A stretch of 64,000 bases of DNA from Corynebacterium marinum DSM 44953 (GTDB lineage Bacteria; Actinomycetota; Actinomycetes; Mycobacteriales; Mycobacteriaceae). Shown piece by piece: positions 61,208-63,302 of this stretch (position 1 is the stretch's first letter; each line of letters begins with the position of its first letter). The stretch is taken from assembly GCF_000835165.1 (NCBI RefSeq), contig NZ_CP007790.1, forward strand, positions 2,232,001 through 2,296,000. The letters are read 5' to 3'. The position numbers and the translations under genes are program-made. A model generated the notes under the pieces. It saw nothing but the letters and a program-made list of their open reading frames with translations, did no database searches and was not told the origin of the DNA.

Positions 61208-62575
61208 ATGAGTCTCCCCGTCGATGCCACCACGCACTCAACCCACCTCGAAGGCCAGCGCGAGCGGATCTTCTCCGACCTCTCCACCCTGGTGGCCTTC
61301 AACTCCGTCCACGCCGAGCCCGGCTGCGAGGCCGACTACGCCTCGGCCGCCGCCTGGGTCGAGGAAGCTCTCGCCGAGCTCGGCCTCGACACCACCGCCC
61401 ACCTCACCGCTGACGGCTCCACCGCGGTGATCGGGCGTCGAGAAGCAGCGGAGGGTATGCCCACCGTCCTCCTCTACTCCCACTTCGACATCGTCCCCGC
61501 CGGCGATCCCGCCCGCTGGACCTCTGACCCGTTCACGCTGACCGAGCGCGCGGGCCGCTGGTACGGCCGCGGCGCCGCCGACTGCAAGGGCAACCTGGTC
61601 ATGCACCTCGCGGCCCTGCGCGCGGTGGAGGCCTCCGGCGGCACCCGCCTGGGCATCATCGTCCTGGTCGAAGGTTCCGAGGAGCGCGGCGGCGCCGGCC
61701 TGGAGGCGCTGCTCCAGGAGGACCCCGAGCTTTTCCGGGCCGACGCGATCCTCATCGCCGACTCCGGCAACGCCGCGGTGGGGGTGCCCACCCTGACCAC
61801 CATGCTGCGCGGCGGCGCGCAGGTCACGGTCACCGTCGACACCCTTGAATCTCCGCTGCACTCCGGCCAGTACGGCGGCGCCGCCCCCGACGCCGTCGCA
61901 GCCCTGGTCCGCATCCTCGACTCCCTGCGCGACAAACACGGCCGCACCGTCATCGACGACGTGGCCAACGACGGCGCATGGGGCGGAGACCCGTACACGA
62001 AGGAGGACTTCCGGCGCGACGCCGGCATCCTCGACGGCGTGGCCATCATGGGCACCGACGCCGACGAGCCCGCCGACATGGTGTGGGCTCGTCCCGCCGT
62101 CACCGTCACGGGTTTCACCTCGACCCCCGTCGCCGAGGCCGTCAACGCCGTGCCCGCCACCGCCGCCGCGCAGCTCAACCTGCGGGTGCCCCCGGGGATG
62201 GACACCGTGGAGGTGGTGGAGAAGCTCGAGAAGCACCTCAGGTCCCGCACCCCCTGGGGCGCCCACGTGGACGTGCAGATCGGCGACATCAGCAACCCCT
62301 TCGCCACCGACGTCGGCGGCCCCGCCCTCACCGCGCTCGGGGACAGCCTCGCCGCCGCCTATGGCGCAGACCAGACCGCGACCGTGGGCTCCGGCGGATC
62401 CATCCCGCTCACCCTCGCCCTCCAGGAGCAGTTCCCCGCCGCCGAAATCGCCGTCTACGGCGTGGAGGAGCCGCAGTCGACGATCCACTCCCCCGACGAA
62501 TCTGTGGATCCCACCGAAATTATCTGCATCGCCGCGGCCGAGGCCGCGTTCCTGCAGGCCTGGGAAGGAAAATAG
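61208..62575 (+). CDS. M20-family metallopeptidase (dipeptidase-like)
   Basis: A 455-residue di-zinc peptidase. YSHFDIVPAG provides the first zinc His and Asp. GRGAADCKGN has the bridging Asp, VEGSEERGG the catalytic Glu pair, and the final His lies in IHSPDESVD. A dimerisation domain is inserted between. It would cleave dipeptides or N-acyl amino acids in the cytoplasm. ATG 61208 is 8 nt after TAACGT, so it is leaderless. The close CIRCE site may also affect it. Confidence 0.9.
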   Translation: MSLPVDATTHSTHLEGQRERIFSDLSTLVAFNSVHAEPGCEADYASAAAWVEEALAELGLDTTAHLTADGSTAVIGRREAAEGMPTVLLYSHFDIVPAGDPARWTSDPFTLTERAGRWYGRGAADCKGNLVMHLAALRAVEASGGTRLGIIVLVEGSEERGGAGLEALLQEDPELFRADAILIADSGNAAVGVPTLTTMLRGGAQVTVTVDTLESPLHSGQYGGAAPDAVAALVRILDSLRDKHGRTVIDDVANDGAWGGDPYTKEDFRRDAGILDGVAIMGTDADEPADMVWARPAVTVTGFTSTPVAEAVNAVPATAAAQLNLRVPPGMDTVEVVEKLEKHLRSRTPWGAHVDVQIGDISNPFATDVGGPALTALGDSLAAAYGADQTATVGSGGSIPLTLALQEQFPAAEIAVYGVEEPQSTIHSPDESVDPTEIICIAAAEAAFLQAWEGK

Positions 62576-62606
62576 TGCGGGGTTGTGTTATCGACGCGAC
62601 AGGGGT

Positions 62607-62612
62607 TACCCT
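62607..62612 (+). promoter_or_regulatory. -10 box for the leader RNA
   Basis: TACCCT lies 6 nt before GTG 62619, so transcription should start at or beside that codon. Confidence 0.55.
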
Positions 62613-62618
62613 GTCGGT

Positions 62619-62678
62619 GTGACGTACAACATTTCTCTTCAGCGAGTAGCCGAGGCTACACACCCCAGTGCGGGCTAG
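62619..62678 (+). CDS. Leaderless upstream ORF, 19 residues
   Basis: GTG 62619 opens a 20-codon frame ending at TAG 62676-62678. It encodes MTYNISLQRVAEATHPSAG. Several codons (CTT, CGA, GTA, ATT) are rare in neighbouring genes, which fits sequence fixed by RNA folding. The frame covers the 5' arm of the closing helix, the second hairpin and part of the third. Whether it is translated is not shown by sequence alone. Confidence 0.45.
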   Translation: MTYNISLQRVAEATHPSAG

Positions 62679-62778
62679 GGACTAGCTCCCCGCACCTGGG
62701 GTAGTAGTCCTTAAGCCACACACCGCTGAAGAGCCGGTCCACTCAACCACAACTTCCTTCCCGAAGATACGAGGACCG
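62635..62778 (+). promoter_or_regulatory. Structured leader RNA upstream of the LeuA-domain gene
   Basis: Helix 1 is a perfect 10 bp (62635-62644 with 62724-62733). It encloses hairpin 2 (62646-62650 with 62655-62659, tetraloop) and a long hairpin 3 (62663-62668 with 62696-62701 and 62669-62674 with 62689-62694). GGACTA in the apical region (62679-62684) is complementary to TAGTCC at 62705-62710, a possible pseudoknot. A separate helix (62735-62740 with 62773-62778) covers part of the GAGGA ribosome site. I do not recognise it as a known riboswitch class. Confidence 0.65.
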
Positions 62779-62783
62779 TCACC

Positions 62784-63302
62784 ATGTTCCACACCACAGC
62801 TCCCGCCACCGTCACCACCCGCACTTCCGCCGACACCGAGCAGGATCCCTTCAGTTCCCGCTTCGGCGCAGACCACCGTCTGCCCCGCGGACTGCGCGAT
62901 GAAGCAGCCGGCATGTCCTGGCCGCTGTTCACCGCCACCTACGCCCCGGCCGCCGACATCCGTGTCACCGGCCTGGAGGCCACCCGCGGACGCGGCGGCA
63001 AGCAGCACTACACCGCCGAGCTGACCCACACCTCGAAGACCACGCAGCCGGTCACCGAGACGCGCGAGATCACCGCCATGGGCCCCGCCTCCGCGGTCTC
63101 CCACCTGCTCGCAGACTCCGGCCGCCACGTCGAGATCCTCTCCTTCCACCAGGCCGAGCTCTTCGAGGCGACCGTCACCTTCGTCAAGGTCGCCCACCAG
63201 CACAACGAGAACCGCCGTTCGTGGGCCATCGGTTTCGGCCCCACCCCGGAATCCTCCATCGCATCGGCACTGGCCTCCGGCGCGCAGCGCATCTACGGCT
63301 GA
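62784..63302 (+). CDS. Stand-alone LeuA allosteric (dimer) domain protein
   Basis: A 172-residue protein. Residues 45-172 resemble the C-terminal leucine-binding regulatory domain of 2-isopropylmalate synthase: a beta strand pair, GPASAVSHLLADSGRHVEIL, an ATVTFVKV strand, then WAIGFG and SSIASALASGAQRIY. The catalytic TIM barrel is absent, and the first 45 residues look disordered. It might sense leucine or a related acid and partner with LeuA, which is inference. It is preceded by the structured leader and followed by a strong terminator. Confidence 0.72.
   Translation: MFHTTAPATVTTRTSADTEQDPFSSRFGADHRLPRGLRDEAAGMSWPLFTATYAPAADIRVTGLEATRGRGGKQHYTAELTHTSKTTQPVTETREITAMGPASAVSHLLADSGRHVEILSFHQAELFEATVTFVKVAHQHNENRRSWAIGFGPTPESSIASALASGAQRIYG

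Follow-up and report, generated by a model that had tools for sequence, protein, structure and literature searches.

A probable translational attenuator akin to the LEU element upstream of a stand-alone LeuA regulatory domain in Corynebacterium marinum

The stretch of DNA analysed here (the window) comprises 64,000 nucleotides of Corynebacterium marinum DSM 44953 (contig NZ_CP007790.1, positions 2,232,001 to 2,296,000). Towards its end, the gene for a 172-aa protein is preceded by a 19-codon open reading frame, which a check on the sequence places from GTG 62619 to TAG 62676-62678 on the + strand and whose stop codon ends 105 nt before the gene. The leader RNA folds far better than its shuffles (-75.5 kcal/mol, z -5.9, equalled by 0/200). 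The features of the locus are these:

62607-62612, + strand: probable -10 hexamer TACCCT, ending 6 nt before the leader GTG, conserved in position
62619-62678, + strand: putative leaderless leader ORF, 19 codons and TAG, product MTYNISLQRVAEATHPSAG, from the sequence and from rule-based finding in relatives
62635-62644, + strand: 5' strand of the closing helix P1, a perfect 10 bp with 62724-62733
62646-62648, + strand: valine codon GTA, the proposed control codon, from the GTA bias of genus and family leaders
62654-62659, + strand: 5' strand of the P3 extension, GGCUAC, pairing with 62704-62709
62663-62674, + strand: 5' strand of the long hairpin P3, with covariation in relatives
62679-62688, + strand: strand A (GGACUAGCUC), apical loop immediately 3' of the leader stop codon, with A:C covariation
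62689-62701, + strand: 3' strand of P3, with covariation in relatives
62704-62709, + strand: 3' strand of the P3 extension, GUAGUC, with covariation in relatives
62724-62733, + strand: 3' strand of P1, its last three bases overlapping strand C
62731-62740, + strand: strand C (GAGCCGGUCC), partner of A or, via its last six bases, of D
62771-62778, + strand: Shine-Dalgarno (SD) sequence GAGGA (62771-62775) and strand D, GGACCG (62773-62778), by the match CGGUCC:GGACCG
62784-63302, + strand: gene for the 172-aa protein, predicted to consist of the LeuA linker and regulatory domain and to lack the catalytic barrel

The assignment of the 172-aa protein draws on its predicted fold, which is that of the solved C-terminal region of LeuA; in the profile alignment, the region after the GP motif is a few residues shorter. 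Searches of Pfam (including LeuA_dimer, PF08502) and NCBIfam placed no family over its cut-off on the window protein, and phmmer with that single sequence found no match in the PDB, where a profile reached M. tuberculosis LeuA only at E 0.03. LeuA_dimer PF08502 did pass its curated cut-off in two of four scanned homologues from other genera. A profile of the stand-alone protein has matches in 191/201 genomes of the family, in 27/31 genera, the weaker of which may be leuA itself; among the matches listed, the open frames span 157-321 aa with two exceptions (531 and 447). Among the public names given to homologues are acetyl-CoA acetyltransferase, 2-isopropylmalate synthase and hypothetical protein, despite their predicted lack of a catalytic barrel. 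According to excerpts of PMC11057210, leucine inhibits alpha-IPMS through this regulatory domain, and it is at alpha-IPMS that the route to leucine splits off from the pathway shared with valine.

Within Corynebacterium, the protein has a match in 153/242 genomes, and the upstream regions of 110 of these 153, our own genome included, were taken for comparison. A covariance model, R1, was built on 36 aligned sequences and comprises P1, P3 and the P3 extension. Run genome-wide, R1 finds the element in 135/242 genomes, with one match each; 36 of the 135 had supplied model sequences and 99 had not. Where the place of the gene is listed, the element precedes it on the same strand in 133/133 genomes, at a distance of 22-490 nt (median 143), the two further R1-positive genomes having no listed place, and R1 detects no element in 17/150 genomes with the listed gene. 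C. marinum itself has a single strong copy, at E 2.2e-24, and one further, weak match at E 0.15. On the upstream regions themselves R1 matches 95/98 (the exceptions being L057, L086 and L116), a figure that flatters the model because loci without a confident match had been excluded, so that 133/150 is the fairer one. Of the 98 sources one is the window, which stands in for L008, and the rest are 97 of the 109 remaining genus loci; the 12 left out were near-duplicates (L010, L045, L064, L066, L068, L088, L113) or gave no confident R1 match (L058, L090, L098, L117 and L099, the last from a genome with no match anywhere). R1 returned no match at E 1 on the leuA loci or on L003-L006. The original prediction had seen no known riboswitch family here, and Rfam 15 agrees: at gathering score it gave no riboswitch, T-box or leader match, with only a tRNA across the window, and 62560-62830 drew only a chance miRNA model (E 3.3). 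No Rfam leader family was found on ten leuA and bridging loci either.

The leader ORF recurs with the element. Anchored on the model, a rule finds an ORF with its stop in or adjoining the apical region for 91/95 genus elements, the stop beginning 0 to 16 nt into that region, and none in 4/95 (L074, L084, L111, L112); it replaced an earlier rule-based search that had found no leader in 17/110 loci. A hexamer of the form TANNNT begins 12-14 nt before the leader start in 77/90 distinct genus leaders, against 0-7/90 in shifted controls, and the family gives 52 TANNNT hits at -13 to -16 among 54 leaders. None of GGAG, AGGA and GAGG occurs before the leader start in either set (0/90 and 0/54; L197 and L170 were left out of the family promoter and SD counts). 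From the -10 box we infer that transcription starts at or adjoining GTG 62619, and the leader is probably translated and leaderless, as had been predicted; the conserved hexamer position speaks against a transcription start 3' of the folded region. The family leader rule mis-picked L170 and L005 and found no leader for L197; L170 was set by hand for the codon counts. In 3/55 family leaders the stop sits in the 5' arm of the hairpin instead. The leaders of L199, L203 and L205, from other genera, read MTCLLVVAHP and MQRLLVVHP and end in that arm, not in the loop.

Covariation was counted on 91 distinct genus rows. The alignment was fitted to the nested helices of R1, so the counts lean towards those helices: P3 is paired in 94.6% of cells with both-side changes in 11/12 pairs, the GGCUAC:GUAGUC extension in 97.0% with both-side changes in 4/6, and P1, whose register shifts among relatives, in 61.4% with both-side changes in all 7 modelled pairs. 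The pairing of A with C is absent from R1, and it too is formed in 92.8% of cells, with both-side changes in 6/10 pairs; in the window 9/10 pairs form. Over the whole structure, 28/35 pairs and 343 cells have both-side changes, against 20.0 and 123.7 in shuffles, with 0/500 reaching either value, and sliding the partners by one to three columns lowers pairing from 88.1% to 30-47%. The compensatory base changes that were looked for in related genomes are hence present.

The A:C pairing was also considered alone. It has 46 both-side cells against 17.1 in shuffles (0/500 reach) and 6 both-side pairs against 3.6 (12/500 reach), while the number of its further pair types is not above shuffles (272/500 reach). 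Relatives rewrite the pairing in other letters, as in GGACUGACUC/GAGUCGGUCC, ACCGACUC/GAGUCGGU, CCGGUUC/GGACCGG, GGACCAACC/GGUUGGUCC and GGACUGGC/GCCAGUCC. Duplex energies in the genus (n 90) are -16.5 kcal/mol for an element's own A:C, -15.1 with a swapped partner and -11.5 when shuffled, the own pairing being better than the swap mean in 64/90, a modest control. For the family (n 51) the values are -15.0, -13.3 and -10.5 kcal/mol, with the own pairing better in 41; this set leaves out L197, L170, L005, L199, L203 and L205 and the duplicates L003, L004 and L006.

Much of the fold drawn by eye in the original prediction is borne out. Its closing helix is indeed a perfect 10 bp on the sequence, and its pairing of GGACT with GGTCC at 62736-62740 is complementary and amounts to five bases of the better supported 62679-62688 with 62731-62740. 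Both hairpins of its three-way junction are present, one with a CGAG tetraloop (62646-62659) and the long one (62663-62701), but the first competes with the conserved GGCUAC:GUAGUC helix, which makes a fixed junction doubtful. A pseudoknot proposed between 62679-62684 and 62705-62710 is complementary in the window and finds little support in relatives, where its paired-cell percentage is at shuffle level (216/500 reach) and its first pair forms in 2/25 sequences; in its favour is a covariation score that only 5/500 shuffles reach, coming from one pair. We also note a conserved run at 62708-62713 (UCGUUA, UCGCUA, UCGGUA, UCCUUA), which starts in GUAGUC and in many genus elements stays unpaired beyond it, and for which no pairing partner was found.

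Strand C has a second possible partner. Its end, CGGUCC at 62735-62740, is complementary over 6 bp to GGACCG at 62773-62778, which overlaps the SD. The C strand contains CGGTCC in 63/95 genus elements and lacks it in 32/95; GGACCG follows within 330 nt downstream in 49/63 of the CGGTCC elements, and is found in the 330 nt upstream in 5/75. Strand C also pairs with the 22 nt before the start codon better than shuffles do (mean z -1.7 in the genus, n 89, and -2.1 in the family, n 51). Sequence matching of this kind supports C:D pairing, and with it the predicted switch that hides or opens the ribosome site, in which C could pair with A or with the SD-overlapping D. When the window's leader is folded with a ribosome occupying the stop codon, C:D has a probability of 0.89 and the SD is 0.15 unpaired; barring C, and C only, from pairing raises the unpaired SD to 0.46, against 0.15-0.18. 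With a ribosome at the valine codon, the program, which cannot score the pseudoknot, still favours C:D (P 0.85), so that the ON state would depend on the pseudoknot. The region 62540-62800 holds 0 terminator-like sites, which makes translation control the simplest reading; the intrinsic terminator that marks the leader of a classical transcription attenuator is thus missing here. At L057:444-526 and L058:444-526, the gene and complementary C and D strands are present with no recognisable leader hairpin, and a GTG is followed by a stop one codon later, so the switch seems lost or simplified there.

We suggest that these parts form an attenuator of translation related to the LEU element, sensing translation of a leaderless leader at its valine codon and controlling the stand-alone LeuA regulatory domain, a reading we hold to be probable. 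Comparative support stands behind its leader ORF, fixed promoter distance and stop position, and behind helices P3, the P3 extension and A:C; which way it responds, and that valine is its signal, we infer. The P1 5' strand ends at 62644, directly before the valine codon, and the P1 3' strand ends 37 nt before the SD. When Val-tRNA is short, a ribosome would stall at the valine codon 62646 and cover the P1 5' strand, P3 would stay, and A would pair with C, so that C could not hide the SD region D and the gene would be translated (ON). When valine is plentiful, the ribosome would reach the stop codon at 62676 and, with a footprint reaching some 15 nt beyond the P site, cover A up to 62688; with A masked, C would be left to D, and translation would be off (OFF).

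The kinship with the LEU element deserves closer comparison. Seliverstov et al. (2005; PMC1262725) described the leuA leaders under that name and left the mechanism open; they favoured a protein ligand and noted that leader mutations of Streptomyces leuA did not fit classical attenuation. Like the element they described, ours has a leader ORF with branched-chain codons and a pseudoknot with a base stem; the hairpin and the pseudoknot with a downstream strand correspond here to P3 and the covarying A:C, and at the leuA loci, too, the leader stop falls within or beside the loop of a hairpin whose apical strand pairs downstream. A model built from 18 leuA leaders only, R2, moreover recognises leaders of the stand-alone gene in other genera, matching 56/56 upstream regions from 24 genera outside Corynebacterium (46 at full length and 10 in part, with E values of at most 0.003 for a search space of 77 kb). 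Genome-wide, with stricter filters and E 0.01, R2 gave two or three matches in 41/61 family genomes, one in 18 and none in 2. In contrast, it matched 0/13 of the Corynebacterium elements tried, the window's included (E 1 at the window locus), and these carry the GGCUAC:GUAGUC extension; for this genus the link to the LEU element hence rests on the same gene and on shared anatomy. Our element also differs in having a Val GTA in place of the leucine run, in its target, which is a stand-alone LeuA regulatory domain and not leuA, and in that the SD is matched by strand C and not directly by the control codons. The leuA gene of C. marinum itself lies elsewhere and has its own LEU-type leader, MFYRANLLLLRRGGSQVH, with a 15-bp A:C pair (L040:2125-2261, minus strand).

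Other systems resemble ours in part. From what is available of PMC10272879, the ilvB-II motif and the ilvBNC uORF attenuators of Corynebacterium share a short leader ORF with many branched-chain codons and alternative pairings, but act through an intrinsic terminator, whereas our competing strand matches a ribosome site. The M. tuberculosis ilvB1 attenuator, to go by passages of PMC13236596, also reads branched-chain codons and has a ribosome at the stop codon mask a strand and decide the fold, but it attenuates transcription of an enzyme operon and does not govern translation of a regulator. The leaderless cysteine uORFs of mycobacteria are likewise amino-acid-rich uORFs before metabolic genes; they concern cysteine and other genes, and the sections of PMC4633059 at hand mention no pseudoknotted hairpin. 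Among the best matches in the open-licence PMC literature there was no report of a stand-alone LeuA domain under a valine leader, nor of a mechanism for the LEU element after 2005.

The case for valine is made by comparing the two kinds of leader. The leader in the window contains a single Leu codon, CTT, and a single Val codon, GTA, and no run. In the stand-alone-gene leaders of other genera, GTA occurs in 55/55, and valine is the only branched-chain residue that every family leader contains, Leu being absent from 9 and Ile from 30 of the 55 (L197 and the duplicates L003-L006 were left out of these counts). The leuA leaders, from loci in 25 of 41 genomes, have GTA in 0/25, and its absence was not a selection criterion; leucine in 25/25 there is itself a product of selection, since the leaders were picked by a pattern that asked for Leu, but all 18 leuA leaders of the order that a Leu-independent rule gives carry at least three consecutive Leu before the hairpin. 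In stand-alone leaders, such as LVVHRRSGV, RVVSRRSGA and LVVTGRNGA, valine adjoins the hairpin where leuA, with LLLSRRDGV, has its leucine run. Among the 91 genus leaders taken at their shortest start, 90 contain Val, 85 Leu and 69 Ile; in L031, the sole leader without Val, a longer start adds one. Of 138 Val codons in these leaders 111 are GTA, against 1/86 in 14 downstream genes (Fisher p 4e-36, an overstatement, since the leaders are related); groEL of the window uses GTA for 0/53.

Codon choice may in part reflect RNA pairing, which may fix the third base, since in 41/51 family leaders (with L197, L170, L199, L203 and L205 left out) the best duplex between the control region and the 34 nt 3' of the hairpin pairs all three bases of a GTA. 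The change of amino acid from leucine to valine is not accounted for by third-base pairing. The Arg codon before the valine (62643-62645) is CGA in 64/67 R-V pairs of genus leaders, which pairing may explain.

The same attenuator might instead sense leucine, or the branched-chain amino acids generally. Leu codons in 85/91 genus and 46/55 family leaders would fit a general branched-chain response, and the ilvB1 attenuator of M. tuberculosis is described, in those passages of PMC13236596, as reading a mixed LVVI run. That leucine and isoleucine can each be missing from family leaders, and that valine takes the place by the hairpin where the GTA-free leuA leaders keep their leucine run, makes this reading rather unlikely to us. 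That the RNA binds a metabolite as a riboswitch, or a protein, with the ORF playing an incidental or secondary part, appears improbable: the partnerless UCGUUA-type run and the protein ligand favoured for the LEU element (PMC1262725) would suit it, but an aptamer has no need of a conserved leader ORF, start-to-promoter distance and stop position, and no Rfam class matches. The original prediction of a translation-sensing control element is hence upheld, while a metabolite aptamer as the likelier reading finds little support; the prediction did not include the kinship with the LEU element, valine as the likely control codon or a LeuA-like protein without a catalytic barrel. That the nascent chain itself arrests the ribosome, as the similar ending R-V-A-x-A-T-x-P of many genus leaders could suggest, is very improbable, given that the paired bases GGCUAC and CCCC code for the stretch that is similar, that the intervening codon varies (Tyr, Asn, His and Asp among others), that some leaders, such as MISTLKRVAHPGGGAD, drop A-x-A-T, and that the peptide differs outside the genus.

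If the valine-sensing attenuator is the correct reading, we may ask what its product does. Speculatively, the barrel-less protein would act on LeuA and thereby, under valine scarcity, direct 2-ketoisovalerate to valine and away from leucine. We put forward, tentatively and as a possibility we do not favour strongly, that across the family a leuA-type leader together with the 3' part of leuA makes up a separate regulatory gene with Val in place of Leu at its control codons, and that valine-short cells make free LeuA regulatory domains that pair with LeuA, curbing leucine synthesis and sparing 2-ketoisovalerate.

We note that this relative of the LEU element supplies many sequences whose compensatory changes separate the competing helices, and it suggests a concrete translational switch. 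The specificity of an amino-acid attenuator looks different between two related leaders of one genome, and the locus offers a clue to what a widespread protein listed as acetyl-CoA acetyltransferase or hypothetical protein does, with possible relevance to valine and leucine production in Corynebacterium. If true, the proposal would amount to cross-pathway control at a metabolic branch point, exerted by an attenuator retuned to another codon together with a paralogue that lacks catalytic activity.
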